A DNA stretch of 64,000 bases from Mya arenaria (lineage: Eukaryota; Mollusca; Bivalvia; Myida; Myidae): assembly GCF_026914265.1 (NCBI RefSeq), contig NC_069135.1, positions 26,632,247 through 26,696,246 of the forward strand. The letters run 5' to 3'. The notes under the pieces are model-generated. The model ran no database searches, was not told the DNA's origin, and saw only the letters and a list, made by a program, of their open reading frames with translations. Positions 29,191-63,360 of this stretch are shown piece after piece (position 1 is the first letter of the stretch; each line of letters opens with the position of its first letter). The translations under genes and the position numbers were made by a program.

Positions 29191-30968
29191 CTATACTTTC
29201 TCTTCAGTCATTTCAATGCCAAACGAGCCAATGAACGCGTTTATAAAAACAATGCCAACTACAAGCACCATAGTTGCGTTGTTGAGACGCGTCTTCCCTT
29301 TGTTCCATCGAATTAGCAGCGCTCCGTCACCCGGTTCCTTTTCTGCCTCCAAGCTGGCCAACTTCACGAGAAACCCCGCAACGATGAACTGTAAACAACT
29401 TCCACTATTAGTTTGTTGTTACTGGGCGGAATTAAAACATGTCTGACAATATATGTCTTAAAAACGCCATTGTTTTTGCCTAATTTTGGTAAAACATCTC
29501 GACATTGTTTCTGAAATCAATATCTATCTGGAAAATGCTTGCTTCAAAACATTTAAATTGTCTTGAACTTGCATATACAAAACAAAATTCTGCTCAAAGA
29601 GAATCTGCATGTATGATGCTGTTTTGAACCGTGAACTTCAGAGCATAATTATGTGACTAAGGCTGTAAATGACCTACTTTCCGAGTGTTAGTCATGGAGC
29701 TCTTAATTGGAGAAGATTTTGAGGGATACAAATGTGGTCAACACAAACAAGATAATCCCAACATATACCATTATGTATCGATAAAGGCATCGCAAGTGGA
29801 AGCCAACGATTTCAGTCCATATAGGCGGATAACATTTGAGTAGTTTATAGATTTTGCAAGACCACCGAAATTAGAGGCTATGGCGATACCTCGATTATGT
29901 TTCTTTGAAAACAATCAATTATATTAGATCATAGCAATCTGATTTATGTTCAGCGTCAAACAAAGCGCAAAAGAATAGAAAAATATTATTCTTTCATGGA
30001 TGTATTTTTGTGTTTCCGGTCATGTGACCAGTGCTTGGAAAAAGTTCCATTCCCGATGGAACATGAGTCACACACATCAACGCGCCCATTGTTTCAATAC
30101 GTCACAGTGTACTTTTAATCAAATATAATAACGATATTCAAAACAGAACGATCAAAATATTAATTGTTTGAAAAATCATTCAATTATTACTAATTGTGAA
30201 AAACTATTTAACATCAAAATTGATTTGAAAAAACTGTGCATCATAACGTCAGTAAATAACGACGCCCTCGCATTTTGGTAAAAAAAATGCTATTTTTGAT
30301 ATAAGATCTTATCACATTTGCAACATGTATATATTAGTTGCCGCTAGAACACCATATTTGTGTTTAATTTTAAATGTGCTAAATATCTGCTTTTCCTTCA
30401 AGTTTTGAAGGTTGAAAACTTCCCCGTCCGATGTCGCTTAACACGGTATCAAATTGTCATGGTCTCTTACCTGCGCATGATGCATTCTCTTACCTGAAGA
30501 AGAACTGACATGCAGATGAGGACAATGTTTGGATAGTAGAATTTGTAACCCGGGCCAGCTTTGACCAGGGCTTTAAGCTGAGAGGCGTTGGCTATCACCA
30601 ATGCAACGTCAAATAAACCGCTTGCAATCGTCTTCCTGGTGTTGTAGTTGAATACAGTGTGGTCGTTCTGTAAAATAGCAGTTTGCAATTAAGTAATTGA
30701 TTTAAAATAAATCGACACAATTTTCATAATTAAAATTATTCCGTCTCTCATGTAATTTAATACTATTGGCGTATTCGAAATGAACTCTGAATGAGCATTT
30801 AAAGATATAATGTTATCGGTCCTTAAAAGACGCCTTAAGATGGTAAAATGTTCTAAATCGAAACAGATCGAAGCAGAATGTAGAACCTGTCCGGGTTCAC
30901 ACAACAAAGAGTAAAATTAATGCAATCAACAAAGTAATAATTACTCCATCTCCATCTTCGTCGGCCAT
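29191..30968 (-). CDS. NINJ: Ninjurin A, three exons, complete
   Basis: Exons at 30968-30945, 30667-30494 and 29388-29191 give 131 residues. All junctions are phase 0 (GATGGA|GTAATT, TTTACAG|AACGAC, CTTCAG|GTAAGA, TTTACAG|TTCATC). Exon 1 holds only MADEDGDG. Exon 2 has the ninjurin core NYNTRKTIASGLFDVALVIA followed by NASQLKALVK and the first membrane segment (PNIVLICMSVLLQ continuing into exon 3). Exon 3 has a charged loop, then RLNNAT and a second membrane helix ending INAFIGSFGIEMTEE. Ninjurins are plasma-membrane proteins. Vertebrate NINJ1 oligomerises to rupture the membrane in lytic death, while other members act in adhesion. Length is slightly below the usual ~150 because the N-terminus is short. 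It is closest to ninjurin B at 57.4 kb. The donor GTAATT of exon 1 is the weakest point of the model. Confidence 0.85.
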
Positions 30969-32650
30969 TTTGAAAGTTGGTGTTTTTCTTTCCTCCCTTA
31001 TTGAAGAAGCTGCCTTAAATATAACAATACAATTTCTGCACTTCTAAACCACAGTTAAGTTCCTTTTCCTTTTCTTTGTACTCACTCAATCAGCTACCTA
31101 TCACAAACTTTTAAAGATAGTTGGTTTGGAATTTTCTTCCTTTAATTTTAAATTGTGCGTCTTACACTTTTGACAGTGGACTCGAGTATGGGTGTTTGAA
31201 TAATTTGTTTTCAAACTAAATTGTGAAATGAAGCGAAGAAACATGATACCCGACTTGATTTTCGGACAGTTTTAAAAACAGGTAATAAACAAGTCAAGAC
31301 TGTATACAATTAAATAACAAGCAACGTGTGTTTAAACGCCAGCGTATGTAACACATCGATACAGATTAGTAGTTTAAACTACATGGTTATTGTGAACATA
31401 AAGAGTTGTTAGGCACTACATTTCGACTTTCTAATTTAAAAGGAGTACCGTTAATCTACAGCAATTTTGGATAAACTATTCATTTTTGGTATCGGGTGTG
31501 CACGTTGATTGTATTCAAACAGTTCCAAGACTATCCACGTCTTGTTATGTTGTTGGATATAACACACTGACAGAATATTATTATGGTGCTTTAACGTGCG
31601 TAGTTTCTAACATTGACAGATGGGACCCCTCGTTTACGTTCCTTCCGGAAGACGGTTTGCATATTTTGTAGTAAGGCTTGTGATCAGACATGCAACATTG
31701 AATTGACAGTCAAGTGACCAACCACACGACTATGTTTCCGTCAATATGCTTAATGTAAAGACCAGTTAAAAACTCACTGGACTCCATATTTCTGTTGATC
31801 GAAGCTCAGGAATTAAAGTCGATGTAAAGTCGAACCCAAACACTTTTGTTGAAAGGATTCTTGGTAAAACGAGTCATGGGAGTAGTTTGAGTGAATTTCA
31901 TGTCCCCTTTCCCACCACATGGAATATTCATAAAACAACAACAAAATCGGACCAGCGGGATAGCGCTTAATTCTGTACTGGAATAGTGTAAATATTGCAT
32001 TACATGTCACTAAAATGCTTGATTTCCGTATGTTTGATTTCTTTTCTTTTTTGCACTTGAGGCTTACCTCAGACGCTGCGTACCTTCATACCACACAAGG
32101 CTACATAGAGCTACACAAACTCCGGGAAATATGATTAATATCAGTTGTATGTCGCTTAGAATTCCTACGTACGTTTGGCAGGTTTTCAGTCCGTGCAATT
32201 ATACATTGTTCAAAAAAACTTACTATTTGAGTTATATTTGCTATCCCAATAGTATAAGGTTTACTTTATTATTTACTAAAAGAGACCAGCGGCGGTTTTC
32301 TAAACTTGCAGACAGGTTTGACAGAATCGGAAAACTTCGATGAGCCAGACAATTAAGAATTAAAAAGGGTAGAAATACAGGGCTCCTCGCCGAGTAATTG
32401 TGTGCATGAATTTGTAGAAAATGTTTTCATATTTACAATATATATTTGTTAATCTAAACATTTTAAGATTTGTACATCAATAATGGTTATAATTATAATG
32501 CAATAACCTTATTAGTTTGTATTTCACTTATTAATTATTTTCATCTCGTCGTAATGGATCCAAAGATAAATTTCAAATTATATGACATGCGCTTTCATAC
32601 ATTTGAGCTATGTTTCACAAATTTGATATCTTTATGCTGTTGAATCAAGC
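30969..32650. other. Intergenic, duplicated at 58.5-60.0 kb
   Basis: Non-coding sequence with clear similarity to about 58470-60000. Relative to that copy there is roughly 200 bp of extra sequence around 32010-32215. A short plus-strand reading frame ending at 32343 is similar in the second copy and is discussed as a finding. Confidence 0.5.
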
Positions 32651-32689
32651 GACTACTAACAAAGATTTTTTTTGTTTTCAAATTAACAA

Positions 32690-32780
32690 AGACCTCAGTC
32701 AATTATTATGGTTTCATTTAGTTCCGCTTGTGCATATGTTGCCATCGCATCGTTATACGATCGTTAAACGCTTAAGGAAG
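32690..32780 (+). other. Possible 5' leader exon of the Kv channel gene
   Basis: A strong donor, TTAAGGAAG|GTAAGTTT, occurs at 32780/32781. The same donor context (GAAG|GTAAGTTG) survives in the duplicate at about 60112. A matching acceptor with a polypyrimidine tract (TTTTTTTTAACAG) ends at 34155, 113 bp before the Kv start codon. I infer a non-coding leader exon spliced to the first coding exon. Its 5' end is not visible, and 32690 is only an arbitrary left limit. Confidence 0.35.
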
Positions 32781-33096
32781 GTAAGTTTATATTGGGTAAA
32801 TATTTGGGTAGAAACGTGATAAAATACATGTTTTCAACTGTACTGATCGCATTATCGGTCAGAAGTAAACACACACCATGCTCACATTCCGCATATCATA
32901 AAGATACTTAACAAGACATTTCTCAATCTCACTCTCAATGCACCTTATCACATAGCGGCCGAGCATCATTCTATATAATTTTTCATACACTATTTTGACC
33001 ATAAATAAAACTTATTCTACAGCAAAAAATGAACTCGAGTAATTGCTATAAATATGTTGCACTGGATGGTAGCATGCATAAATATTAACCTATGAC

Positions 33097-34007
33097 CTTT
33101 TGCCATTTCACACAAAAGTTTTCGTTATAGAATCTAAGCGGCGAAACAAACGCGTAACCGGATCCATCAGAAATTCCAAACCTTGCTATACATACTGCCA
33201 GATTAAAGATTAATAGAAATAAAACGACGAGTGGATATTTTCTGAGTGATGGACATAAATAATTTAAACCTCTGACAATAGTTGTCCTCGTAACATGCAA
33301 TTTAAACCCAATGGCTGACGTTTGACAGTAGATATCTCACAAGCGTAGCTAATGTTTGATACATGGCATTGCCCAGGGGCGAAAACAAGCCGACCCTTTG
33401 ACTTTAGAGGATAATCTGGCCTTAAGCGTAATGTATCCGTGGAAATAGCGTAATAAATCCGTAGATATCTAAGAGTTGCTTACGATTGTTTCATTCAACC
33501 TCTTTTGTTTTAAGCCTTGATGTAGCAGTATGACCCTTTAAATGATTCAAAACTTTGATTTAAAGATAAAGAAGGAAGGGAATATAATTTGTCATCAAGC
33601 CGAGCGCATTTTAATGGATTGAAAATAATATTTAGATGCATAGTGAACGCTTTGGACATCGCTTAGTAAATTAATAAAATTCGCACCAGCTGTACCCTAA
33701 TTGGAGATCAGCTACCGTATGGCCTTAAAGGACGGTCCAATTTTAACTTCACCTAAATAATTGTTAGTATCTGCATCACATGTGACATCAAAGTCAGAGT
33801 TTAGAATGCTTTAATACAACTTTATGGAGATTTATTTAGACCTACTGACGACATGCAAGCCCATACAGTTACCCCGTTTGTGATGATTGGCTACACCTCT
33901 TTGAATATATCGGAAAACACTTTTACAGTTTCCGTCAACGCTGCTGCCACATTGCCTCCAGTGGGGATTAGGTAATTGAACATTACGATGACGGATATAC
34001 CAGAAGT
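33097..34007 (-). pseudogene. Degenerate ninjurin-like exon fragment(s)
   Basis: On the minus strand an acceptor-like TTTTCTAG precedes a 38-codon frame (34007-33891) starting TSGISVIVMFNYLIPTGG. This resembles the start of ninjurin exon 3 in C and D (TGILLLILGS, TGVMLLVLGS). A similar frame is present in the duplicate at about 60500-60630 (GIFVIVIFNYLNPIGG), without the acceptor AG. Further downstream, 33300-33085 encodes a hydrophobic segment ending FNLAVCIARFGIS, vaguely like the second ninjurin helix. No exon 2 (the NASQLK block) was found nearby. I treat this as a possible relic. It may equally be chance hydrophobic sequence. Confidence 0.25.
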
Positions 34008-34268
34008 CTAGAAAACAATAATCCCATTATCAATAATAGAAACAGATAATGCACTAGTATAAAAATTTCCGTTTTTAACGTTGTGTAAAATATGGCATGG
34101 TGTCTTTTTCTTGTTGGCTGAAATTTGGGGGATTATTTTTTATTTTTTTTAACAGGCAATACACATAGATAATTCGAACAAATGCAAACTTATTTCATGA
34201 CAATGTGTTCCTCCTGGACTATGCAAGAAATGTTTTTCTTGAAATGACAAAGAAAAGATGAATGCACA

Positions 34269-36942
34269 ATGAGCAGAAAAATACACACCGACAACTCAAC
34301 GATAGTGTGGCAGATTTCGAACCAAAGTCTAGTTAAACTAGACATAGGAGGAACAGTATTTAAATGCTACCGTGAGACCTTGTACTCCTTTCCAGAATCA
34401 AAGCTTGCTCGCTTGCAAGAGGATGACTTGGTACTCGAGACCAGTACGGACAGGAATGAATACTTCTTTGACAGAAATCCAGTCTTTTTCAATATCATAC
34501 TGGACGCGTACAGAAAAGGTGTTGTCCATCTGCAGAAAGACATATGCGGGTTGGATTTTAAGAAAGAACTGGATTTTTGGGAAATTTCTCCGGGCCATGT
34601 TGCCCCGTGTTGCTGGGAAGCCTATTACAGGTAACGCAGTATCAGTTTATACAATAGTTTTACGCAATGGCATTTTATACATTCGTTTTCAAAATACATG
34701 TTAAATTCTACTGACACAGTTGATATTGCATGCTCATTTTGACATTCGTGTTGCCTTTTCTCGACCATCTGTTTATATACTGACAAACGTTATTGCGTTC
34801 AATATGCAGGGGTCAGTCCGAAGAAGATACCATGACACGCCTGATGGAAAACTACAGGGAAAACACGAACGTATGTCTGATGCTGGGGCAACGAAAAGAT
34901 TTGAAAGAGAGACTTTGGCTTTTTTTGGATGAGCCACAGTCTTCGAGACATGCATTTGTAAGTTCACTACATTGAATGTTATTGTGCTTGTCTCTGATTC
35001 ATTTTAAGGCCTTTATTCGATTAAGGCGTAAGTTAAAATTATATTTGTTTCACACTTTTGTTAGATTGCTTTATATCCGTATGAGTTAAACGAATAAACA
35101 GAATAATCTGAGTTTTGCCATCTGTTATAATCCTTCGTGTTTATGATGTTTTAAGTTTCGAATCTTGAATGAACGTGCCCATTGGATTGAATCTACACTA
35201 TGAAATAACTGCGTTACCTGTAATAGGCTTCCCAGCAACACGGGGCCCGGAGAAATTTCCCAAAAATCCAGTTCTTTCTTAAAATCCAAAACGCATATGT
35301 CTTTCGGTTACGACAATAATAAGCACTGGAACTGTCGATTAAGCGTCCAAAGTGCTGTACTCGCCTCAGGTAATACGATACACATGATCATATATGTCAC
35401 CACCTAAAACGCGTTTATTGTGGTAAAAGCCGTTGAACTGGCGGTTTTAACAATAGTGTTGATACTCAGAATCTCACTTGCCGCAACATTTTGAAACAAA
35501 TATCTCATAAACCTTATCATGTCAGTTATAATCTTCACATTTAATTAAGTCAACACCATTACCATTTTTATTTGTACGTGGATCGATTGTAAAAACATAA
35601 TAATCTGATAGTCCAGCAACACATGTGTCATTTTAGAGGCTTAAATCGTGTAAATGAAGAGCTCAAGCTCATTTTTTATATCTTAATAGATGGGCAAACA
35701 TACCAATCTCACCCCAGTAAATTGCGTCATAAATGCTACATCGGAAGGCAATATTTTGTTTTGAATAAAGTATTTAAACAAAGATAACTTCACTATTTCT
35801 TCACCATTTTAAATGAAACATAGCGCAGTCTACGCCGCTTAAGGAGCCCTGCCTTCGATCTTTTACCAGAGTTTAATTGAGGGTTTACTTTCTTAAAACA
35901 CTTCTGCAAAATATTTTTGAAATGATGTTGTAAAAGAAAAGTTATCTTTGATTTGAGTCTTCATTTTAAGCAAAATGTTGCTTTTCGATGTAGCATTTAT
36001 GACGTAATGTATCACGTGGTATACACACACTGTCTGTGTTATTTAACAAACAAATTTATAATTATATTTTTCTTTCAGATCTGGGCAGTGTTTATGTCAT
36101 TTATTGTGGTAATATCGACGGTTTTACTGTGCATCGCAACCTTGCCCATCGCATTTGACAAGAGTTCTGAAGAGGATGATAAAATTCTCCAACGAATGGT
36201 AGATATTTTCGGCTTTAAAAATCAAACGGGGAAAAAGTTGAAAGATTTGAAATGGAATGATGCATTCTTAACAAGTATGGCCGCATTGGTGCTTATTATG
36301 ACAGCGGAGATGTTGGTATGTTTCATCGTATACCCGGTTAGGAGGCAATTCTGGAACACTCGAAGAGTTCTTACATTCCTTGGCTACATTTGCTTTTGGA
36401 TAACTTTTGGTTTAGAGTTGAATCTCGAAATTTTGACGACAAAACCAGGTCTCGTACTATTTGTGATAGTGCGGTATGGAATTATTCTGCAGTTATTTCG
36501 GCTGTTTGATTTTGCACGCGCAATTAAGTCTTTTAACATTATGGCACTTACCGTTCGTTCCTCAAAAGAGGAACTTAAAATGGTTCTCTTTTTGATGGCA
36601 ATACTTGTGTGTCTGTTTGGGTTTTTCATGTTTGCAGCTGAATATTCATATAACGAGAAAATGAACAACGCATTTAGCGCAATGTACTGGGCGTTGATCA
36701 CCATGACAACAGTCGGATACGGAAATTACGTACCGGAAACAGTATTAGGCCACGTAATTGCTTGCGCATGCGCAGTGTGTGGTGTTATTATTTTGGCTCT
36801 GCCAATTGGGGTTATTTCGTCAAATTTTTACAGGTTTTATAATTATCACAAATATGCAGAGAGACGCTTGACCGAGTATGGAGCTCATCTTAAAGGAAAA
36901 GTATATCCGTATCATTCCAAACGATCGACTACAGCAATGTAG
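34269..36942 (+). CDS. Kv-type potassium channel (Shaw-like T1), three coding exons, degraded voltage sensor
   Basis: Exons 34269-34630, 34810-34957 and 36079-36942 give 457 residues. Donors are TTACAG|GTAACG (phase 2) and GCATTT|GTAAGT (phase 0). Acceptors are ATATGCAG|GGGTCA and TCTTTCAG|ATCTGG. Residues 21-118 form a T1 tetramerisation domain with the non-Shaker zinc motif HX5CX20CC (His87, Cys93, Cys114, Cys115). FLDEPQSS (159-166) precedes S1 (about 171-192), as in Shaw/Kv3. S2 is about 232-253, S3 268-285, S4 296-322, S5 335-356, pore 370-388 and S6 393-420. The filter is TVGYGN (381-386), with Asn where most Kv channels have Asp. S6 has ALPIGVI in place of the PxP hinge. S4 keeps only part of its charges. 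K+ selectivity is expected, but classical voltage gating is not. It is the only plus-strand gene among minus-strand ninjurins. Confidence 0.88.
35209..35306 (-). repeat. Inverted partial copy of Kv exon 1 inside intron 2
   Basis: Reverse-complement copy of 34535-34638, covering the last ~95 bp of coding exon 1, its donor and the first intron bases (shared GAAAGAACTGGATTTTTGGG and CCTATTACAGGTAACGCAG). It differs mainly by a deletion of about 8 bp and a few substitutions. It lies in the intron after exon 2, so exon 2 sits inside an inverted repeat with a spacer of about 570 nt. Confidence 0.9.
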
Positions 36943-38144
36943 CCCTGTGGATATTGCAGGATTTATTCAAAGTCTTGTCTACTCCATTACTATTATTTTG
37001 ACTGCTACCCTTTAATGACATTTGATGTTATTGCAGCATTTCAAGGCACTTTAGAGTTTTATTGTTTTAGCTTAATTATTGAAATATTCCATGTTCGGTA
37101 TGTATTAATTCTAGGGTGTTATTCTTTTCATTGCAATATGTTGTATTTGTTGTGCATTCTGTGTTTTTGGCTTTGCATGTGGTTCACTGTTATAATTATT
37201 GCTTGCAGTAGAAACCACAGTAACCAACATGAGATTTGAGAGATTACCAGTGAGAATTTCAGCTCCATAAACTTGTAAGTGTATATGTAGCTGTTGATGC
37301 CATGTGAGTGTTGTTATTGTTGTCATTACTGTTATTTTGTATGGAATGTCATTTATCTCATTAGTCCTTTGTTGATACGGGCTACTTAGCAGATACTGTC
37401 TGATACAAACCTTTTTCATATTATATAATAAATAGAAATACGTGTGATGTTGCGTTTTATTTTATATTGTTATTACATGTAATTATATGTATGTTTGTTA
37501 ATTCAACTGTATTGAAGCATACTGGAACATTTGGATTACATGAACACTAAACCTACCGCAGATCAATTTTGTTGTATTTACCCCAAAGGCAGTATTTTAA
37601 CTTTTATAGACATTTCTTGCGTGAATCAAGCTTACAGTAGCTTGCTCTGACAAATTATTATTAGTTTCAAAGCTTTCATTCGGTCCAGAAAATAATCTAA
37701 ACTCCCAATATTTGTTATTCGATCCTCTATGTGAGTCTTTTTAACACACGATGCATGAATACATATCTTCATGTATACAATAAAACTCCTGTGTACCCTT
37801 TTTCTTGCCTTATATTGAATTACATTACCATCTTATTAAAGCAGCACTAAATAAAACAGTCGCTACATGCAAGAAAGTCTGTATATATATTTTGTCCCCA
37901 GGGTAAATAACTCTGTCTATATGTTGAAATGGTTAAACGCCTATTCAAAGACAACCCAAGTTTTCTTTTGTATGTTACATCTTCCTTTATAGTGACCATA
38001 TATAAACGCATTTTATGTATAAGACAAATGTAAAATATCACAGTTCTGTATTTATAGAAGTGTTAACCAATGTAAAATGACTTCTGTCGTTAGATAAAAC
38101 CACTTCGTTTCAAACCAACGTCTGATCAATTCATCTTACACTTG
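36943..38144. other. Kv 3' flank and intergenic DNA
   Basis: Probable 3' UTR of the Kv gene. A polyadenylation signal AATAAA is present at 37427-37432, about 485 bp after the stop, and another at about 37779. From about 37.8 kb the sequence is homologous to 62.8 kb onward in the duplicate block. No other gene is seen. Confidence 0.5.
37427..37432 (+). terminator. Candidate poly(A) signal of the Kv gene
   Basis: Canonical AATAAA downstream of the Kv stop codon and before the convergent ninjurin C gene. Use of this site is inferred. Confidence 0.4.
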
Positions 38145-39681
38145 TCAAAGCTTTGCTTCAGATTGAATTTGCTCCGTAAGTCTTATTCCAAACGCCGCAA
38201 TGAAAATGTTAATAACGGTAATGACGAACACAAAACCAACGATGACGTCATTAAGCCGATGCGCGGTACGTCGTTCCTCTAGGTGCTTGCCGTTCGGTTC
38301 CATGCTTCCAAGGATCAAGAGTAAGATTCCCGTGTCTATCTTAAATGTGAATAAAATATGAATATATAATTGTAATAAACAGTATAAGGACACATGTTTG
38401 TGCAATAAACATATACGGATCATGCCACTAGAAAAGATGTTACTACATATGTAATCCATTTGAGGAAATTAAGAATTAATTCTAAAGGCTTTATCAGTAT
38501 CTGTTTGCTCAAGTGTTTTCTTCCTAGCCTTTAATGGCCAAATTGAATCAATGCTGTTCCATTTAGGATACTTCTGATAATTTTATACCAAAACATTTAC
38601 AGTGTATACTTTTGAGAAGATATCGAACAATTCTATGTTATATTATATCATAAATATGATATTCATCGGTATGTTTGAGCACGTTATCTTTTTTTTGTAA
38701 AAACATATGACCACATAAGCCATCTGAAACATATCGTCACATTGCCAACAATTTTGTGGTCTAACAAAGCTTTATTAAACATTAACAGTAAAGCTAGACT
38801 TACAAATAAGTCTGTGTTTAATAGTTACAACCATTACTTTTATAAAAGCATATAACTTATGCAGAATATTTGTGATATTAGCAGTTTCTAAGTTATCAAA
38901 AACGTAAAAGTTACTAGAACACCCACTTACCTGTAACGAAATTGATAGGCTTATAAGGACCATGTTAACATGGAAGTGTTCCTGCTCTGGCCCCAAGCTG
39001 AGTAGTGATTTCAGTTGGGAGGCGTTTGCGACCAAAAGGCCAATATCCAGAAGGCCTTTAGCCAAGGTCTTCTTTGTCGCGTAGTTGTTGTAGCCGAACT
39101 GCAGTTTTGGATGAATAATTACCTATTGGGAAGAAAGTATTAGCGTGAATGTTTGCCTGTGACTTAAATAGTAAATCATGATTCAACAACGTCACGGTTT
39201 ATGTTCAGTATTATATTACTTTTAATATATGTTTATTCAACATTCAACAGTAAATTGATTATTGAACAATAACACGTTTAACAATACATTTAAACATATT
39301 TTAGAAGTACATCGTTTAATCTGAACATCAACATTTACAAAAGTCACCTTTGATTAACAAATTTAAAATAATTAAGCATATTTCACACATTTTCGTATTA
39401 AACGCTCCGATTTGATAAATGAAAATTAATTGTACTCCTTTATAGTCTAAAAGACCAGTAAACAGAAACAGTGTTAGGCTTATCAACAATGCGACCAAAG
39501 CTTATGTTTGACTGGTAATTTTAGTATATTCTTTGTCTTCCAGAATAAAACGAAAAAAAATCCCTCTTACCGGACTTCCATCTGTTGCGGTTCCACTCGC
39601 TCTCAGTTTCACTTCAGAAGTCTGTTCTGTTCCAGTACCGGGCGTTTCTGATTTTGAATATTGGACTGCTTGAGTTGCCAT
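38145..39681 (-). CDS. NINJ: Ninjurin C, three exons, complete
   Basis: Exons at 39681-39571 (37 codons), 39122-38931 (64 codons) and 38339-38145 (64 codons plus stop) give 165 residues. All junctions are phase 0 (AGTCCG|GTAAGA, CCAATAG|GTAATT, TTACAG|GTAAGT, TTTAAG|ATAGAC). Exon 1 is polar and rich in Thr and Ser, as expected for the extracellular N-terminus. Exon 2 carries NNYATKKTLAKGLLDIGLLV, NASQLKSLLS and the first membrane helix. Exon 3 completes that helix (TGILLLILGS), then has a basic loop and RLNDVIVGFVFVITVINIFI with the FGI ending typical of ninjurins. The NYATKK block matches vertebrate ninjurins better than A and B do, so C is the most canonical copy. Exon 3 is closely matched by ninjurin E at 63.2 kb. 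It converges on the Kv gene, with about 1.2 kb between the stop codons. Confidence 0.9.
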
Positions 39682-40546: not shown

Positions 40547-40619
40547 CTGAGAATTATAAAACAAAAATGGTGTTTTTGTACTCTTTATACACATAATGAA
40601 CAAATAACCCACTCTTCAT

Positions 40620-48065: not shown

Positions 48066-48599
48066 TTTTCTTTCCTTTTATTTTACTCTTGATTACACAG
48101 TTTCCTGATATTTTTTAATACTTTGGTTTCGAACGCCTGTCTATTTCGCTGTCATTCCAGATTCTCCCTGTATTGGAACGTATACTTTTCCGCCGTATAT
48201 ATTCATCAGCTGACGAACATTCATGATATCATCATTATTATCACCGCTGTGTTTTTATAAAAAAAATCACTGTGCGGACTGACATGTGTTTATCAACACT
48301 GTGGGTTGCTTCACAATCTAGGGCTGATTAATTTCGTTAGGACATATGACAAAAAACCTAGTGCGCCTAAACCAAACTAAAATATTTTATCTTTTCAAGG
48401 GTGTATACACCCAGGCAAGAGAGAAATGTCCATTGATGTTCGATTTAATAGTCTCTTTACTTTGGCATAGTTTAAAATGTGTTACAGTCGCCGTTATGTC
48501 AAAGACAATCGCTGTTAAAGTAAATTTAAATATTTTCAAAAGGAGAAACCTTATTCGGCTTTTATCTGCAATACGACAACTAATAAAACCATGCACTGT

Positions 48600-51500: not shown

Positions 51501-54500
51501 GCTTCAACCATGCAATGTCTACCGCTTCAACCATGCAATGTCTACCGCTTCAACCATGCAATGTCTACCGCTTCAACAATGCAATGTCTACCACTTCAAC
51601 AATGCAATGTCTACCGCTCCAACCATGCAATATCTACCGCTTCGACCATTCAATGTCCACCACTTCAACCATACAATGTCACCCTCTTCAACAATGCAAT
51701 GTATACCACTTCAACCATACAAAGTATACCGCTTCAACCATGCAATATCTACCGCTTCAACCATGCAATGTCTACCGCTTCAACCATGCAATGTCTACCA
51801 CTTCAACAATGCAATGTCTACCGCTTCAACAATGCAATGTCTACCGCTTCAACAATGCAATGTCTACCGCTTCAACCATGCAATTTCTACCGCTTCAACA
51901 ATGCAATGTCCACCGCTTCAACCATGCAATGTCTACCGCTTCAACAATGCAATGTCTACCGCTTCAACCATACAGTATCTACCGCTTCAACCATACAATG
52001 TCAACCGCTTCAACCATGCAATGTCTACCGCTTCAACCATGCAATGTCTACCGCTTCAACCATGCAATATCTACCGCTTCAACCATGCAATGTCTACCGC
52101 TTCAACCATGCAATGTCTACCGCTTCAACCATACAATGTCTACCTCTTCAACAATGCAATGTCTACCGCTTCAACAATGCAATGTCTACCACTACAACCA
52201 TACAATGTCTACCGCTACAACCAGGCAATGTCTACCGCTACAACCATACAATGTCTACCACTACAACCATGCAATGTCTACCACTCAAACCATACAATGT
52301 CTATCGCTACAACCAGGCAATGTCTACCGCTACAACCAGGCAATGTCTACCACTACAACCATGCAATGTCTACCACTCAAACCATGCAATGTCTACCGCT
52401 TCAACAATGCAATGTCTACCGCTTCAACCATCCAATGTCAACCACTACAACCAGGCAATGTCTACCACTCAAACCATACAATGTCTACCACTATAACCAG
52501 GCAATGTCTACCACTCACACAATGCAATGTCTACCACTCAAACCATGCAATGTCTACCGCTACAACCATACAATGTCTACCACTCAAACCATACAATGTC
52601 TACCACTCAAACCATACAATGTCTACCACTACAACCAGGCAATGTCTACCACTACAACCAGGCAATGTCTACCACTCAAACCATACAATGTCTACCACTA
52701 CAACCAGGCAATGTCTACCACTCAAACCATGCAATGTCTACCACTACAACCAGGCAATGTCTACCACTCAAACCATACAATGTCTACCACTACAACCAGG
52801 CAATGTCTACCACTCAAACCATGCAATATCTGCCGCTTCAACCATACAATGTCTACCGCTTCAACTATACAATGTATACCGCTTAAACCATCCAATGTAT
52901 ACAGCTTAAACCATGCAATGTATACCGCTTCAACCATGCAATGTCTACCGCTTAAACCATGCAATATCTGCCGCTTCAACCATACAATGTCTACCGCTTC
53001 AACTATACAATGTATACCGCTTAAACCATCCAATGTATACAGCTTAAACCATGCAATGTATACCGCTTAAACCATGCAATGTATACCGCTTAAACCATGC
53101 AATGTATACAGCTTAAACAATGCAATGTCTACCGCTTCAACCATGCAATATCTGCCGCTTCAACCATACAATGTCTACCGCTTCAACTATACAATGCATA
53201 CCGCTTAAACCATCCAATGTATACAGCTTAAACAATGCAATGTATACAGCTTAAACCATGCAATGTCTGCCGTTTCAACCATGCAATATCTACCGCTTCA
53301 GCTATGCAATGTATACCGCTTCAACCATGCAATATCTACCGCTAAAACCATGGGATGACTACCGCTAAAACGACACAATGTCTACCGCTTCAACAATGCA
53401 ATGTCTACCACTTTAACCATGCGATATCTACCGCTTCAACAATGCAATGTCTACCGCTTCAACAATGCAATATCTACCGCTTCAACCATACAATGTCTAC
53501 CGCTTCAACCATACAGTGTCTACCACTTCAACAATGCAATGTCTACCGCTTCAACCTTGCAATGTCTACCGCTTCAAAAATGCAATGTCTACCGCTTCAA
53601 CCATACAATATCTACTGCTTCAACCATGCAATGTCTACTGCTTCAACCATGCAATGTCTACCGCTTCAAAAATGCAATGTCTACCCCTTCAACCATGCAA
53701 TATCTACCGCTTCGACCATTCAGTGTCTACCGCTTCAAACATGCAATTTCTACAGCTTCAACCATGCAATGTCTACCGCTTGAACCATGCACTGTATACC
53801 GCTTCAACAATGCAATGTATACCGCTTCAACCATACAATATCTACCGCTTCAACTATGCAATGTATACAGCTTAAACCATGCAATGTATACAGCTTAAAC
53901 AATGCAATGTCTACCGCTTAAACCATGCAATGTCTGCCGCTTCAACCATGCAATATCTACCGCTAAAACCATGGGATGACTACCGCTAAAACGACACAAT
54001 GTCTACCGCTTCAACAATGCAATGTCTACCACTTTAACCATGCAATGTCTACCGCTTCAACAATGCAATGTCTACCGCTTCAACCATGTGATATCTACCG
54101 CTTCAACAATGCAATGTCTACCGCTTCAACCATGCAATATCTACCGCTTCAACCATACAATGTCTACCGCTTCAACCATACAGTGTCTACCACTTCAACA
54201 ATGCAATGTCTACCGCTTCAACCTTGCAATGTCTACCGCTTCAACAATGCAATGTCTACCGCTTCAACCATACAATATCTACCGCTTCAACCATGCAATG
54301 TCTACTGCTTCAACCATGCAATGGCTACCGCTTCAACAATGCAATATGTACTGCTTCAACCATGCAATGTCTACAGCTTCAACAATGCAATGTCTACAGC
54401 TTCAACCATGCAATATCTACCGCTTCGACCATTCAGTGTCTACCGCTTCAAACATGCAATTTTTACAGCTTCAACCATGCAATGTCTACCGCTTGAACCA

Positions 54501-54545
54501 TGCACTGTTTACCGCTACAACCATGCAATGTCTACCCTTTAACCA
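48600..54545 (+). repeat. 23-bp satellite array, open in all three forward frames
   Basis: About 258 units with the consensus CAATGTCTACCGCTTCAACC plus ATG. Three units (69 bp) equal 23 codons, so every forward frame reads the same cyclic peptide (QCLPLQPCNVYRFNHAMSTA followed by STM). This explains several overlapping forward ORFs, the longest 48346-53070. Blocks differ: CTTCAACC units (48600-52190), CTACAACCAGG and CTCAAACC units (52190-52830), and GCTTAAACC units (52850-53330). Longer segments are duplicated with a ~1.15-kb offset (about 49.1-49.7 kb and 50.27-50.83 kb), and a 621-bp (27-unit) block at 53340 repeats at 53961. I call it a satellite, not a gene. Confidence 0.9.
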
Positions 54546-55297
54546 TACAAAGACACTCTTCATTACATAGTATGTGTATAGATGAATGACTGGACATTTT
54601 CAGCCGTATCGATTGTGACGATATAAAATATTGGATCTGATCGAAATATTGGAACTAAACTCGGTGCATTTGAGTGAAGGACATAGAACTGAAACAATCG
54701 TAGACATGTGCTTCAAAGTACAGTGTGAAAAATGCCAGAAATATACTTGGAAAGGTGAATTTTATTCATTTACTTTAACGTTGTTAAGTTTATAAATTCT
54801 GACATCAGATTAGTTCACACGGTTTATCAATGAAGTACACTTCGTTGTAATTGTAACTTCGCTATTTGATTATGCTAATCTATTTAAAACGCGAAATGTC
54901 GGTTATAAACTATTTATATCAGAAGTTTTCGTTCATGTGTTTACATATATATGGACATTTCTATAGTGCATACAGTACATAGGCATGATAAGATATTGAT
55001 CAAGGAAGTAGTTTATCGTTGTACTTCGCTATTTGTTTTAATATGTAAATTAAAAACACCAAGTTTCGGTTACAAATATTTTGTATTGAATTGAAAAGGT
55101 CAGTAAATTACCCTTTTATGGCCTAAAAAAGTTGTAAAATCAATCGTTTAACGTCGAGTTTAATAAGAGATAGGATATAACTAGAATATTTTTTTTATTT
55201 CTTATGTAATTTAGGTCTTTTATTTTACATAGTAGAAAAAAGAAAGCAATACCCCTTTAAAAAATACCAGAGTTACGAGGCATACACTTTTAACATT
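54546..55297. other. Spacer between satellites, no gene seen
   Basis: AT-rich sequence without supported coding potential, RNA gene or repeat. Confidence 0.5.
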
Positions 55298-55712: not shown

Positions 55713-57403
55713 TTAGTTGGGGTCACCAGGCATACCCATAATTTTGTATCAATAAATCCAAGGGGACGTATGGTTCTTTTCTGTTTCCAACAAGCAATGA
55801 AAAACAGTATATATAAAAATGTATTAGTAATGCTTAAATTATTTAATCTCCAAATCTAGCCATTTTAAACTTGTTAAAGCTTCTGGACGCTTTATTCTTT
55901 AAAAGGCTGTAAAGTAGTATATTTTATTTGGTTCTTGTTGTTTTCTTCCTTTATTGTATATATCCACCTGTAAGTATGTTTTACATATCCAGGGTGTGGG
56001 AACCACATCGAAAGGGTGTTGAAGGATGTACCGGAAGACCAGCGATGTAAGTGTCCGAGGGACTAGCACTTGTGCGCAGTTTATCTCAGGGTAAGACTAC
56101 CGGTGGTCAGTTTGAAAACCATTAATTGTGGATTAAAAGATATTTGAGTAAATGTTTCTTTGTTGAAAAAAATGATTTTTACGTGGTGTTTAAACGAATA
56201 AAAGAGATATATTAACAATAAGCATATCATGTTTATAATAATATCCAAATATTAATCCACTATTACAAACTATTAAAGACTAATTTCACTTTAATGAAAC
56301 GGGCCCCTAACGTTTTCTATAAGGTGTACAATGATACAATGACGGTGTTCTCTAACCGATATTGCCATTGTTCAAATCAACACAAAACAATAATTCCAAA
56401 GAGATTATTATTTGACACGAGAGTCTCTTTAAAATCAGTCACAAGTTTTATGTTATACGTTTGCGGTATTGATCAGTCTTATTGATTTCAGTTCGCATTG
56501 CCTAATGATGACATTATAGATTTGCTTAATGGTGCTCAGTAAACGTAATTATTCCTTTCTTTTAAATCTTTACTGCTCTTGAACTTAATGTACGAACAAA
56601 CAAATTTTGAGATTGAGATTTTGAAATTTACAAATGTGCTTCATCTCTTATTTAAAAGAATGAGCGCATCAAATGACCATACACATCATTTAATATCATT
56701 GTAAACTTTAACGGTGCTCTGAACAATGTGCTACAACATGAAACATGTGTTCAAGGATATGTATTACTCGTATAATTATATAGATGCTTTTATATGATTT
56801 CGTTTTCATTTTGTTATGTTTTCTCATAACAAAAACATGCACTTAAGATCTGCTTCTTTTCTTTGCAGATTTCCGGACATTTATTTGGCCATGGAGTCTT
56901 AGTGTCATTCTACAGCAAATCTCTATTAAGTTGCTCACCCCTCCTCTGAGCCAGTTTTGCAATGTATTTATTATTTTTATTTTTTTTTAATTTCTAAATA
57001 ATAAATGTTAGAAAGGCCCTGCTTTTTAAAACAAACGGGATGTATTATACACAATGCTGCAAGGGAGTAAGCTTTGCATAAATCATTCATCGTTAGAAAA
57101 TGAGTTGTCTTTCTTGATATTAGTTTAAACTGCATACCAAAGAAACCGTTTAACATTATTAAAGTGGACTTTAATAACTAGTCACATAACATATAAAGTC
57201 AAAATTAGTCACGAAATGTCCGTAAAGCGGTTCGCTTAAAGGGTCATAAAGTTTTCATGAAAGCGTTACAAATATTCAACAATAGCCATGACGTCATTAA
57301 GCGCTATAGCGTTACACTGAAATATACCACAAAAGCCATGACGTCATTAAGCGCTATAGCGTTAAACTAAAATGTTCCACAATAGCCATGACGTCATAAG
57401 GCG
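55713..57403. other. Flank of the second ninjurin block
   Basis: Non-coding. Homology to the first block (28.28 kb) begins at about 56500. A local 50-bp tandem triplication ends at the ninjurin B stop codon and is listed separately. Confidence 0.5.
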
Positions 57404-57411
57404 CTATACTT
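57262..57411 (+). repeat. 50-bp repeat x3 overlapping the end of ninjurin B
   Basis: Three units of 50 bp with CCATGACGTCAT at 57287, 57337 and 57387, each followed by AAGCGCTATA or AGGCGCTATA. The third unit contains the ninjurin B stop codon. The A copy has only one unit and lacks the TGACGTCA form. The triplication therefore arose in copy B from the gene's 3' end. Confidence 0.8.
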
Positions 57412-58467
57412 TCTCTTCAGTCATTTCAATGCCAAATGAGCCGATGAACACGTTTATAAAAACAATGCCAACTATGAGCAGCACAGTTGCGTTGTTGAGA
57501 CGCATCTTCCCTTTGTTCCGTCGAACAAGCAGCTCTCTTTCTTCCGGTGGCTTTTCTGCCTCCATGCTGGCCAACTTCACGAGAAACCCCGCAACGATGA
57601 ACTGGAAACAACTTCCATTATTAGTTTGTTGTTAGTGGGCGGAATGAAAATATGTCTGACAAGATACATGTATAAAAAAATAAAAATTGTTTGAAAAATG
57701 TTTCAATTATTATTAATTGTGAAAACTATTTATCATCAAAATTGATTTCAAAATACTGCGTCAGTAAATAACGACGCCTTCGCAGTTTGGTGAACATGTA
57801 CAAAAACGGGGTTTTCTTAAAATAGATCATATCACATTTGCAACATGTATGTATATATTCCCGCTAGTACACCATGTTCGTGTTTAAATTTGAATGTTGT
57901 AAATATCTTCCTTTCCGTCAAGTTCCGAAGCTTGAAAACGTCCCCGTCCGGTGTCTCTGAAAATAAGATCAAGTTCTCATGGTATTTTACATTTGCAATA
58001 ACCGTGAATAAGGCATTCTCTTACCTGAAGAAGAACTGACAGGCAGATAAGGACAATGTTGGGATAGTAAAAATTGTAACCCGGGCCAGCCTTGACCAGG
58101 GCTTTAAGCTGAGTGGCGTTGGCTATGACCAATGCAACGTCAAATAAACCGCTTGCAATCGTCTTCCTGGTGTTGTAGTTGAATAAAGTGTGGTCGTTCT
58201 GAGGAATAGCAGTTTGCAATTAAATTATTCATATAAACTTAGTAGACAGTGATTTATGTAATATATTACTTTTGGCGCAAACGAAATTAACTCTGAATGA
58301 GCATTTAAAGATATGATATTATCGCTTCTTAAAAGAGTTTTAAAATGTTTACAAAGTTCTAAATCGAAATGGATCAAAGCCGCCTGTTCACCCTTTTGGG
58401 TTTGCACCTCAAATAGCAATATTAATGCACACAAGAAAGAAAAACTTACTACCTCTTCGTCTGCCAT
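57404..58467 (-). CDS. NINJ: Ninjurin B, three exons, complete
   Basis: Exons at 58467-58450, 58198-58025 and 57601-57404 give 129 residues. All junctions are phase 0 (GAGGTA|GTAAGT, CCTCAG|AACGAC, CTTCAG|GTAAGA, TTCCAG|TTCATC). Exon 1 is only MADEEV. The rest parallels ninjurin A: NYNTRKTIASGLFDVALVIA, NATQLKALVK, a first helix PNIVLICLSVLLQ-FIVAGFLVKL, an acidic and basic loop, RLNNATVLLIVGIVFINVFI and the end GSFGIEMTEEKV. Most differences from A are in the loop between the helices, while the helices and N-terminal core are conserved, which suggests selection on both copies. In A and B the usual NYATKK block reads NYNTRK. Confidence 0.88.
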
Positions 58468-60870
58468 TTCCAAAGTGTATGTTGTTTTTTTCCCCTTTTT
58501 GAAGAAACTGCCTTAAATATAACAAAATACAATATCTGCACCTACACCAAAGTTAAGTTTATTTCCCTTTGCTGTGTAAGCATTCAATCAGCTACCTTTC
58601 ACAACTTTATTGAGAGTTGGTATGGAATTTCCTTCCCTCAACTTTAATTTGTGCGTCATACACTCATACACTTTTAACAGTGGATTTGAGTATGGGTGTT
58701 CACGGGTTGAATAGTTTGTTTTTAAACTTAACAGTGACATAAAGCGAAGAAATAACATCCCCGATGACGTGATTGTATGACAGTTTTTAAACCAGGAAAT
58801 AAATAAGTCAATGCTGTAAACAGGTAAATTACCATCAGCGTGTGTTAAAGCGCCAACGTATGTAACACATCGATACAGATTAGTATTTAAACTGCATGGC
58901 TATTGTGATCATAAAGGGTTGTAAAGTCACTATATAACAACTTTCTAATTTAAAATGAGTACCTTTAATCTACAGCAATTTTGAATAAACTCCTGTTCAT
59001 GTTTGGTATCGGGTGTGCACGTGTATTGTATTCCAACATTTGACTGTCCATTGTCGGCTTGTAATGTTGTGGGGTATAGAACACAGACAAAATGGTAGTA
59101 TGTTGCTTTAACGTGCGCAATGTATAGCACTGACTTGTTGACGTTCCTTCCGAAAGACTGTTTGCATATTTTGTAGTAAGGCGTGGGGTCAGACATGTGA
59201 CCCTGTGTTGACAGTCACGTGAACACCACTAGACTACGGATCCGCAAATATGCTTAATGTAAAGCACCCTTTACACTTCCCTGGACTGCATGGTTCCTGT
59301 ACAAAGCGGCTGTTACTCGCTCGAAGCTCAGCAATTGGAGTCGATTTTAAGTCGAACCCTAACACTATTATTGAAGGGATTCTTGGGAAAACGTGTCATG
59401 GAAGTAGCTTTAGTGAATTACATTGCCCCCCCCCCACACACACACACACACCCGCACCACCACCACATGGATTCCGAAAAACAAAAATAATCGGACGGGC
59501 GGAATAGCGATAAATGATGTACTGGAATAGTTTAAATATTGCATTACCCGTCCCATTTTTTTACTATTTTTAGTTATATTTGCTATTACTGTAGTATCAG
59601 GTTTACTGTATTATTTACAACATGAGACTAGCGGCGGTTCGTAAACTTCAAAACAGGTTTGAAAGACTCGGAGAACTTCGATGAGCCAAACAACTTAAAA
59701 TCAAAAAGGGTAACGTATACAGGGGCTCTTTGCCGAGAAATAATGTGCATGTATTCTTCCGAAGTGTTTACATATTATTATATGACATATCTTAACAATT
59801 GATTTAAATATTTAAACATTTTTACATCAATAATGGCTATGCGATAACATTATTTGTTGTTGTTTTTTCACATATTAAGTATTTTTACCTCATCGTAATG
59901 CATACTAAGATAAATTTCAAATCATCTGACATCCGCTTTCATAAAGTTAAGCTATGTTTCACAAACTTGAGCTCTTAATGCCGTTGAATCTACTTACAAA
60001 GCATTTCTTTGTATTTAAATTTAATGATGACCTTAGTCAAATGGTTATCATGATTTCATTTAGTGCTGCTTGTACATATTTTGCCACCGCATTATTCGTG
60101 TAAAAAAGAAGGTAAGTTGATATTGATATTTGGAACGAAAACGTGATACAATACATGTTTACTACTGTAATGATCGCATACCTGATAGCAACAAACAAAA
60201 AACTTTTGCACATTGCACATATCACTGGGCTACTTAATAATACATTTCTCAATCTCAATTCACTACACCAAATGAAGGCCTAGCATGATTCTATATAAAT
60301 TTTCATCGGCTCTATCGATAAAACCTTTAAGAAAAATAATGCGGATATTGTCTGAGTGATAACAGAAATAATTAAACCCTCTGACAGATGGTTGTTCTCA
60401 TACGCGGCAATTTCAACCCAATGCCTCTCGTTTCACCGTCAGTCTTTAGAAGACGGTCCAAATTAAACTTCATAATTTTAATTATTTTCATCATATGTGA
60501 CATTAAAAGAAACATCGTGAAACACTTCTACAGTTGCCGTCAACGCTGTTGCTTCTTTGCCCCCGATCGGGTTCAGGTAATTGAAAATAACGATGACGAA
60601 TATACCAGTCAGGAAAACAATAATCGCATTATCAATATTAGAAACAGATAGAGTACTAGTATCAAAGTATAGTAGTGAACACACGTTGTGTAAAATATAC
60701 CAGGGTGTCTTGCTCTTAATAAGTTGACTGAACTATGAAATTGTTAGTAATCAGATAATACAAATATTTCGAATATATGCAACTTAAATCCATGACATTG
60801 TGTATTTCGTGAACAATGCAGGACTGTGTTTCTTTTGTCACTTTTCTTGAAATGGGATGAAAAAGAGGAA
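58468..60870. other. Intergenic, second copy of 31.0-34.2 kb
   Basis: Non-coding sequence homologous to the first block, with several insertions and deletions. It includes a C-run plus CA microsatellite at 59427-59462 and the conserved donor-like GAAG|GTAAGTTG near 60112. The ninjurin-like relic frame recurs at about 60500-60630. Confidence 0.5.
59427..59462. repeat. Poly-C and CA microsatellite
   Basis: A run of C followed by (CA)n and CACCAC repeats. It is absent from the matching position of the first copy at about 31.9 kb. Confidence 0.85.
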
Positions 60871-60876
60871 CGCACG

Positions 60877-62720
60877 ATGAATAGAAAAATACAGACTGAC
60901 AACTCAACGATAGTGTGACAGATTTGACCATTTCATCAATTAATTCGAACCAAAGTGTAGTTACACTTAACTAGAGGAACAATATTTAAAAGCTACCGGA
61001 GACACTTTACACCTTTCCGGAATCAAAGCTGGCTCGCTTGCAAAAGGATGACTTGCAACTGGAGGCCAGTACGGATAGAAATAAATACGTCTTTGACAGA
61101 AATCCAGTATTTTTCAATATCATACTGCACGTGTACAAAGGCGTTGTCCATCTACCGAAAGACATATGCGGGTTTGATTTTAAAAAAAGGAGTTTGAATT
61201 TTGGGAGATTTCTTCGAGCCATGTTGCCCCGTATTGCTGTGAAGCCTACTGCAGGTCTGGAAAGCAGTATTACGTTAAACAATAACTTTAATGTCGTACA
61301 TGCGTTTTTACGTGTTCATGTAATATTCTAACGACACACATGATATTGCATGCTCATTTTGACATTCATTTTCTCGATCGTCTATTTATATACTGACAAA
61401 CGTGATTGTGTACAAAGATTGTTCAATAGGCAGAGACCAGTCTGAAGAAGATACCATGCCAAGCCTGATGGAAAACTACAGAGAAAACCCGAACGTCTGT
61501 CTGATGCTTGGCATACGGAAATATTTGAAAGAGAGGCTTTGCCTTCTCTTTATTAGCAACAGTCTTGATGGCATGCATTTATAAGTTGATTGCACTGACT
61601 GACATGGTGCTTGGCTCTGTTTCATTTACTGCCTTTATTAAATCTTATGAGTACGTTGAAAATACCTAAGTGACATACGTTTGTTAGATTGCGTCAATCG
61701 TTTGAATTTTGTGCAATGAAACAAAATAATCTGAGTGTGGCCATCTGTACTGTTTGACAGATTTGTTTGACGGATTTAATATGTTTGAAGCTACGAACAT
61801 TGAATGAAACAAACTAATGAGGATTATTCTACATCATTTATTAACTTTCAAAATATTCATTTTATCGTATATGGTCGCAATGGTGACTTTAACATTGTTT
61901 AAGCGAGCTTTCAAACGCTTTCAGTATCAAACAAATAAGCACTGGAACGCTCTATCGAGCGCCAAATCTGTTGTACTGGCCTCAGGTTTTAAGATACATT
62001 ATAAGTGTCTTCCATGGCCGAGAGTATTAGATAGGTTCATCCCGACCCGAGCGTATGGTGTTTTGCGGAAGCGATGTTTACCGAGTTTCCGCAAAACACC
62101 CTGCGCGATAGTAGTGAGGAACCTATAATACACGAGCGGCTATGGTAAGTGCTTTTTCTGATGCAGATCATGTTAATAGTCAAATCGGTCTTTAAATAGT
62201 TCTGAGGAAAGTGATTTTTTAATTTCTTGAAAGGTGCGCGAAAACTTTTTTATGGTGACATTTGAAGCGAGAAATAATTCGTAAGCATTCAAAATGATAC
62301 AACAAGACTAGGTTTCGATGATGCTATAGATGACAGTATTCAACAAGGGAGGTAGTTTCAATGTGATGACCATAAGAAAGGAGTTCCATACGGGTACTTG
62401 TTTTATCTTTGCCCATGGGCAAATTAACCATATCATATCAGTTATTATCTTCAATTTTAATCAAGTCAACACCACTTTTCTATTATTCTCTAATTGAATC
62501 GACTGGAAAAAAAAACATAATTATCTGATAGACCAGCAAAAAAGGTGTCATTTTAGAGGCTTATATAGATTGACTTAAGGGCCTTGAACCTATGATCTAT
62601 ATTTTAACAGATGGGAAAACACACCAATCACACTCTTTGTAATTTAACAAACAAATTTATCACATTTTTTTTTCTTTCAGATCTGGGCAGTGTTTATATA
62701 TATTTTTGTGGTAATGTCGA
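60877..62720 (+). pseudogene. Kv channel pseudogene, pore exon deleted
   Basis: Decayed duplicate of the gene at 34269-36942. The equivalent start codon is at 60877. An in-frame TGA (60916-60918) replaces Trp codon 14, and small insertions and deletions follow. The T1 region is still readable in part (VFDRNPVFFNIIL, GVVHLPKDICGFDF). The exon 1 donor has changed from CAGGTAAC to CAGGTCTG. An exon 2 remnant lies near 61432-61580 (SEEDTM, LMENYRENPNVCLMLG). Of exon 3 only about 40 bp after an intact TTTCTTTCAG acceptor remains (62681-62720). The sequence then jumps to DNA homologous to the region after the active gene, so S1 onward and the pore are missing. It cannot make a channel. A short T1-only product is also unlikely because of the early stop. 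Confidence 0.9.
61820..62680. other. Intron 2 of the Kv pseudogene
   Basis: Non-coding. It includes a perfect 14-bp stem (GGTGTTTTGCGGAA at 62057-62070 and its reverse complement at 62087-62100) with a 16-nt loop. The 103-codon ORF at 61817-62128 spans this hairpin and has no recognised similarity. Confidence 0.5.
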
Positions 62721-63165
62721 CAAATCAATATTCTGTACCTGAATCAAATATCTGTTTTTGTTTTTATCATTAAGGCATTAATACGTATTAAAACAGTACT
62801 TAATAGAATAGATGTTAAATGCAAAAAAGTCTTAAGATGTCATTTGTCACCAGGGTTAATAACTCTGTTTATACGCTGAAATGGTAAAACACTTATCCAA
62901 GGACAAACCAAGTTTTCTTAAGTTTGTTACATGAACAAAATTGTAAAATATCACAGCATTGTATATTTATTACATCTTTAATTATATCAACCATATATAT
63001 ACGCTTTTCAGACATGAACAAAATTGTTAATATCACAGCATTGTATTTGTAGAAGTGTCAATCAGTGGCTAATGACTTCTGCCGTTAGATAAAATCACCC
63101 ATCAGACAGACAATTATGAAGCAGTTCGTTTCAAACCAACGTCTGATGATTACATCTTTGTCATG
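62721..63165. other. Flank between Kv pseudogene and ninjurin E
   Basis: Homologous to about 37.8-38.1 kb of the first block. No gene is seen. Confidence 0.5.
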
Positions 63166-63360
63166 TCAAAGCATTGCTTCAGATGGAATTTGCTCTGTAT
63201 GCCTTATTCCAAACGCCGCAATGAAAATGTTGATAGCGGTAATGACGAACACAAAACCAACAGTGACGTCATTAAGCCGATGTGCGTCACGTCGTTCCTC
63301 TAGGTGCTTGCCGTTCGGTTCCATGCTTCCAAGAATCAAGAGTAAGATACCCGTGACTAG
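63166..63360 (-). CDS. NINJ: Ninjurin E, last exon (partial gene at window edge)
   Basis: A 195-nt exon, the same length as ninjurin C exon 3, runs from acceptor CATTCTAG|CTAGTC at 63360 to the stop at 63166. It reads VTGILLLILGS, a basic loop with HLEERRDAHRLND, then VGFVFVITAINIFIAAFGI and a polar tail ending SEAML. It differs from C by only a few residues and has no stop or frameshift. Exons 1 and 2 should lie beyond 64000: sequence matching the region just 3' of ninjurin C exon 2 (CTAACAAAGCT) already appears at about 63915. Whether the whole gene is intact cannot be judged here. The shift of the acceptor relative to C makes the splice uncertain. Confidence 0.7.
   Translation of the reverse strand, partial: LVTGILLLILGSMEPNGKHLEERRDAHRLNDVTVGFVFVITAINIFIAAFGIRHTEQIPSEAML

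Follow-up and report, generated by a model that had tools for sequence, protein, structure and literature searches.

Cassette copying and the possible roles of a tandem ninjurin array in the soft-shell clam Mya arenaria

What would a clam do with a row of ninjurin genes? To address this question, we analyzed a stretch of 64,000 nucleotides of the Mya arenaria genome (C14:26632247-26696246, hereafter the window), in which a preliminary description had placed five minus-strand ninjurin loci, A, B, C, D, and E, within 34 kb and had suggested that they encode diversified cell-lysis or adhesion effectors. We also searched the whole genome (1,216,080,610 bases in 18 contigs). For comparison, humans have two ninjurins (PMC12547243) and flies three (PMC11664169), according to excerpts of these articles; PMC10307626, PMC6281612, and PMC7578350 are likewise cited below from excerpts. 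The main text of the 2020 M. arenaria genome paper does not mention ninjurin (PMC7531772), "Ninj" does not occur in the 2023 genome paper (PMC10663159), and no ninjurin array appears in the titles and abstract openings of the papers listed by a literature search for ninjurin in molluscs and bivalves. The clam genes are a lineage-specific expansion of a known family, one that is larger than five loci. On balance, we favor a tandem array produced by the copying of a cassette, with products that act mostly in adhesion or membrane scaffolding and with membrane rupture possible in the class that comprises the C and D types.

Ten ninjurin loci and their cassette

All five loci lie on the minus strand where they had been described, and their identity as ninjurins, for which a profile search had been proposed as the check, is borne out by matches to the Pfam Ninjurin family (PF04923; curated cut-off 26 bits) at each of them: A with 88.9 bits (E 2.3e-25), B with 90.5 bits (E 7.4e-26), C with 109.2 bits (E 1.1e-31), exons 2 and 3 of D with 122.1 bits (E 1e-35), and exon 3 of E alone with 31.7 bits (E 1.5e-7). 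A PDB search matched NINJ1 and NINJ2, the best E values being 4.3e-23 for C and 1.2e-14 for A. The predicted plan of three exons with phase-0 junctions also holds for A, B, C, and D, since all eight modeled introns fit GT/AG. Locus A begins with an exon of 8 amino acids (30945..30968) that has an ATG, a phase-0 GT donor, and counterparts in the loci H and K introduced below; exon 2 (30494..30667) is bounded by AG and GT, and exon 3 (29191..29388) has its AG and a stop. The splice model of C comprises a first exon of 37 amino acids (39571..39681), with a counterpart in locus I, followed by exon 2 (38931..39122) and exon 3 (38145..38339), and that of B a first exon of 6 amino acids (58450..58467; an earlier GT would give 5), exon 2 (58025..58198), and exon 3 (57404..57601). 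For D, exons 2 and 3 are modeled at 44404..44589 and 43097..43264. Only exon 3 of E (63166..63360) falls in the window, its remaining exons lying beyond it. Every exon 2 and exon 3 listed here carries the Pfam Ninjurin match.

A six-frame scan of the window, in which stop-free pieces of at least 15 amino acids were compared with a profile built from the window's own ninjurin proteins, recovered nine exons (four exon 2 and five exon 3) at E 9.5e-25 or better and no further ninjurin exon, the next best piece having an E value of 0.19. No match in the window reached the Rfam gathering scores.

The first exon is the weakest part of the D model. Two candidates fit it, mutually similar and of 12 codons each, at 48030..48065 and 46272..46307 on the minus strand; the ATG and GTAAGT donor of the first are kept in unit 3 of the array and in gene G, and those of the second in unit 3. 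Because both candidates, start and donor included, recur in locus J of unit 3, and because a matching first exon precedes exon 2 of the related gene G by ~300 bases, the D gene is, as judged from these comparisons, very likely complete. It may have two alternative first exons. Locus M, which lies elsewhere on C14, has a stretch resembling the D first exon in which the donor GT is lost.

The 34-kb cluster is real, but the window edge is not its end: the array continues to a total of ten minus-strand loci over 72 kb of C14 (26661437 to 26733521), in the rising order A, C, D, B, E, F, G, H, I, J. Beyond the window, H is A-type, I is C-type, J is D-type, and F and G are D-like. By colinear alignment, the array is three copies of one cassette, composed of an A-type ninjurin, a Kv channel gene, a C-type ninjurin, and a D-type ninjurin, with unit 1 reading A-Kv-C-D, unit 2 B-Kv remnant-E-F-G, and unit 3 H-Kv-I-J. 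The tandem expansion previously proposed therefore stands, but not as five independent duplications, as a single duplicated block includes both A/B and C/E. Units 1 and 3 are 94.6% identical over 6574 columns and 93.7% over 4564 columns, with other pieces at 81-99%; unit 2 matches both at ~75% in long pieces and at 70-84% overall. Within the window, the unit 1 stretch 28401..38729 (A, Kv, and C exon 3) is colinear with the unit 2 stretch 56624..63738 (B, the Kv remnant, and E exon 3) in nine plus-strand pieces of 73.6-84.2% identity. Three-exon models are intact at eight of the ten loci. The exceptions are E, read in exon 3 only, and F, which is broken: its exon 3 carries both a stop and a deletion, and its sole upstream first-exon candidate has 6 codons and is unlike the other first exons. 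Inside gene G there is an additional exon-3-like fragment with a stop.

Between A and C, a Kv-type potassium channel gene occupies the strand opposite to the ninjurins, with a BTB/T1 frame at 34248..34634 (plus strand; Pfam BTB_2, 1.3e-22) and a channel exon at 36082..36942 (plus strand, start approximate; Pfam Ion_trans, 2.4e-24 on 35926-36942) whose best PDB match is Kv1.2 (E 2.6e-32). Both matches are stop-free in units 1 and 3. The unit 2 copy of the BTB exon, at 60862..61255 on the plus strand, contains stops and frame breaks, and no match to the channel exon was found in the DNA read from that unit. The Kv copy and F have thus decayed in unit 2, where B, G, and E exon 3 stayed open. The end of the BTB exon of unit 1 (34535-34640) is repeated in inverted orientation at 35208-35305 with 90.6% identity. 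Between units 1 and 2 lies a 23-bp minisatellite of ~259 copies (48587..54550), whose very long open frames are due solely to repetition; after unit 3 comes another array of this repeat family, shorter and diverged.

Eight further ninjurin loci lie outside the array, which brings the genome total to ~18, a lower bound given that the genome search scores only its best candidates. Locus K, on chromosome C1, is A-type with three exons. The D-like loci L and M are on C14 near 28.1 and 28.3 Mb (M near 28.31 Mb); no first exon was found for L, and exon 2 of M contains a frame break. Downstream of each stands a lone C-type first exon (28096509-28096601 for L and 28314890-28314985 for M), as if a C-type neighbor had been lost. 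The remaining five loci, of more distant types, are split between C9 (two) and C6 (three), and four of them, both on C9 and two on C6, have no intron at the exon 2/3 junction and read straight through it. The C9 genes (36606557-36606859 and 33225594-33225896) are near-identical ninjurins, intronless within the domain and very divergent from the array, with a Lys-rich stretch before the domain.

Relationships and constraint among the copies

To place the clam proteins relative to the human ones, we built a 12-row tree of ten array-type proteins with NINJ1 and NINJ2, without F or the two C6 and two C9 rows, and a 17-row tree that adds these five; E is in neither. In the 12-row tree, the ten clam proteins fall on one side and NINJ1 and NINJ2, the outgroup, on the other (100/100), and one-to-one orthology to either human gene was not found. 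A, B, H, and K form a clade on a long branch (100/100), and C and I form another (100/100 with 12 rows and 96/99 with 17). The two N-terminal types proposed earlier are thus real lineages. The motif given for the second type needs correction for D, which reads NSYATKK rather than NYATKK, and the tree separates the C and D types within that class. Resolution is lower in the 17-row tree: half of its 14 inner forks (seven) are open, and support is only 84/57 for the node that unites all clam rows except those of C6.

Selection was assessed by dN/dS for 12 pairs and one exon-3 pair set with a one-sided test, the p values being uncorrected for ten tests; the deep pairs A/C, A/D, and C/D were discarded as saturated or nearly so. 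The ratio is 0.18 for A/K (p 8e-12), 0.24 for J/G (p 9e-8), 0.28 for D/G (p 4e-7), 0.21 for C/I (p 0.016), 0.45 for B/H (p 0.033), and 0.51 for G/L (p 0.042).

Exons and introns have not always diverged together. A (29191-30968) and B (57404-58467) differ at 10 of 89 synonymous sites versus ~155 of 648 intron positions (Fisher p 0.006); B/H also has fewer silent exon changes than intron mismatches (p 0.03), and A/H shows no such difference (p 0.68), with intron 1 of this last pair differing by 0.4% and intron 2 by 9.2%. Between units 1 and 3, compared over two stretches, 200-base segments differ by 0-12%, and three segments (41901-42576) are unaligned, at 41-50%. These patterns would be compatible with gene conversion centered on exons and homogenization of parts of units, which we regard as possible; constraint on silent sites or intron misalignment may be other causes of the exon/intron contrast.

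Lysis sites and candidate roles

We compared the clam proteins with NINJ1 and NINJ2 at sites taken from the NINJ1 structure paper (PMC10307626) and a review (PMC12547243). The array-type rows of this comparison are A, B, C, D, F, G, H, I, J, K, and L, plus E for exon 3 sites only, with F carrying an X at its stop here and in the 17-row tree; M (frame break) and one C6 locus, C6c (only exon 2 read), were excluded from the residue table and the trees. Eight sites are reported to reduce NINJ1 lysis when mutated (K45, D53, I84, Q91, G95, T123, I134, and A138), the first four being needed for NINJ1 filaments as well as lysis (PMC10307626). Like human NINJ1 (PDB 8cqr, 8uip, 8sza, and 9bia), the array types have a Ninjurin domain with all four of these residues: K45 is present in 11 of 11 array-type rows with the site read (and in two of four C9/C6 rows, with Arg in the other two), and D53, I84, and Q91 are each kept in 15 of 15 rows. 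Both residues of the K45-D53 intermolecular salt bridge are present in the array types. G95 is kept in eight of 12 array-type rows, with Ala in A, B, H, and K; A138 in seven of 12, with Ser in A, B, H, K, and F; and I134 in four of 12. The number of lysis sites retained is seven in C and I, six in D, J, G, L, and F, and four in A, B, H, and K.

Three other residues, Ala47, Gly93, and Phe117, have been proposed to separate lytic NINJ1 from non-lytic NINJ2 (PMC10307626, PMC12547243), and no clam row has any of them. Ala47 is replaced in 15 of 15 rows by a bulky residue, Leu or Ile in array types and Phe in the C9/C6 genes; Gly93 in 16 of 16 by Ile, Val, Met, Ala, or Asp; and Phe117 in 16 of 16 by a polar or charged residue, which is Arg in 11 of the 12 array-type rows, the alignment of F being uncertain at this site. 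In kind, these states resemble NINJ2 (PDB 8szb), and they would suit purely adhesive, non-lytic surface proteins, as would the hemocyte adhesion role of fly NijA and NijB (PMC11664169). However, all 15 rows compared at the site have the NINJ1-like Q63 where NINJ2 has Arg, and the C/D class has the NINJ1-like L57 where NINJ2 has Phe; the full NINJ2 set of Val47, Val93, Phe57, Arg63, and Gln at the 117 site is complete in no row; and the array stands outside both human genes in the 12-row tree, with no orthologue of NINJ2. A purely adhesive role is a tenable account, if one that falls short of even odds in our judgment.

The opposite possibility is that the clam proteins are NINJ1-like executioners of plasma-membrane rupture in lytic cell death that were diversified by duplication. 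The core polymerization residues would fit this, as would the retention of G95 and, F excepted, A138 in the C/D class, and D shares 51 of 107 aligned residues with NINJ1 compared with 51 of 116 with NINJ2. Against it stand the absence of Ala47, Gly93, and Phe117 and that of Thr123, found in 0 of 12 array-type rows. An A47L NINJ1 was non-functional in cells despite forming filaments in vitro (PMC10307626); if Ala47 and Gly93 are vertebrate novelties, their absence in the clam says little about lysis. The A class departs further, with Ala95, Ser138, a changed I134 site, and a very short N-terminus: 17-19 residues precede K45 in A, B, and H, 27 in D, and 54 in C, compared with disordered N-termini of 44 residues in NINJ1 and 30 in NINJ2 (PMC12547243). 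Finally, an exon-by-exon genome search for gasdermin (PF04598), the usual upstream partner, found none at 0.001 and two weak matches (1.28 and 3.23) at a maximum E of 10, a weak search that does not show absence, as control genomes also gave none at 0.001 and one match below the cut-off at a maximum E of 10. Of the effector roles first proposed, then, the polymerization core is in place and the NINJ1-like states at 47, 93, and 117 are not; the residue comparison leans somewhat against plain NINJ1-like activity, and we consider an executioner role doubtful.

Unlikely, in our view, is a mostly neutral amplification of a duplication-prone region with decaying copies. The broken F, the stop-containing remnant inside G, the frame break in M, the broken Kv copy of unit 2, and weak constraint in young pairs all speak for such decay, but eight of ten loci are intact and older pairs are clearly constrained. 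That unit 3 is merely an uncollapsed allele of unit 1, an assembly artifact, is improbable, for although some 200-base stretches differ by 0-1% and an excerpt of the Mya genome paper notes the high heterozygosity of bivalves (PMC10663159), other stretches differ by 9-12% and three are unaligned, synonymous divergence between the units is 0.06-0.10, and the ~9.8 kb read beyond the minisatellite of unit 3 has no match to unit 2.

The favored account, a cassette-derived array with mainly adhesive or scaffolding products, would run as follows. Copying of the cassette gave three units. These diverged, a Kv copy and a ninjurin gene fell into decay, and some sections of the units were probably homogenized afterward. 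Alignment to solved NINJ1 and NINJ2 predicts small products in which a helical N-terminal segment precedes two membrane helices, and these proteins may associate with one another at the plasma membrane by way of the K45-D53 contact. Since C and I keep seven of the eight lysis sites and D, J, G, and L six, these are the likely polymerizing members; the A class, with four sites and its very short N-terminus, is more likely an adhesion or modulating partner. By analogy with the fly, the most likely role would be cell-surface adhesion and membrane scaffolding, probably in hemocytes or epithelia; the C/D class might additionally rupture membranes, although this should not be taken for granted. Drosophila NijA, NijB, and NijC are also invertebrate ninjurins (PF04923) with N-termini of very different lengths, and NijA and NijB act in hemocyte compartments and adhesion, NijA being a hemocyte adhesion molecule (PMC11664169). 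This makes adhesion, the role with direct support in an invertebrate, at least as likely as lysis, which is itself possible. The fly has three genes compared with ~18 clam loci, and the likeness drawn here is one of description, not of sequence.

Several observations weigh against this account. Constraint is clear for older pairs and nonsignificant for the youngest, the remaining dN/dS values being 0.41 for D/J (p 0.053), 0.38 for C/E exon 3 (p 0.057), 0.60 for A/B (p 0.11), and 0.49 for A/H (p 0.17); some young copies may therefore drift. Thr123 is missing throughout the array types, as noted above. The moments of the two N-terminal helices do not exceed those of shuffled sequences for any array copy, NINJ1, or NINJ2, the lowest shuffle fraction outside C9 being 0.138 (G) and that for helix 1 of the two C9 genes 0.04-0.05; because even NINJ1 does not stand out, the moments lend no support to amphipathicity. 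A more elaborate scheme, which we think has little chance of being right, is that C/D subunits polymerize while short A-class subunits, with K45-D53 kept and membrane-helix contacts altered, cap or tune the mixed filaments, so that class dose would set the readiness for rupture. In this scheme, D would adjust its N-terminus by alternative first exons, and it is this region that reportedly converts NINJ2 into a lytic form (PMC12547243).

Surroundings of the array and what it may mean

Elsewhere in the window, a 639-amino acid open frame on the minus strand (4373-6292) contains Mab-21 domains (PF20266, 4e-21; PF03281, 6.7e-6), and its best match among solved structures is cGAS-like receptor 1 (8gjy, E 1.1e-19), making it likely a cGAS-like receptor gene by sequence, ~23 kb from the array. 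Two adjoining satellites occupy the intervening region: one with a 170-bp unit (11502-19540; 47 copies, 97% matches) that starts just after a run of 99 N, and one with a 395-bp unit (19550-28274; 22 copies, 92%). Across both, GC is 0.46-0.57 versus 0.32-0.42 in other 4-kb steps.

Ninjurin-1-like transcripts of other bivalves have been reported to change in the mantle and hemocytes of shell-infested scallops (PMC6281612) and, with temperature, in virus-challenged oysters (PMC7578350). The soft-shell clam also hosts a transmissible cancer, in which cell-death control is of interest, and a link from there to the array would be speculation. Of the ten interface sites that PMC10307626 mutated, six (44, 47, 95, 123, 134, and 138) differ from NINJ1 in at least one clam copy. 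The ~18 loci, ten of them in one array, thereby constitute a natural variant set for asking which residues make ninjurins rupture membranes.

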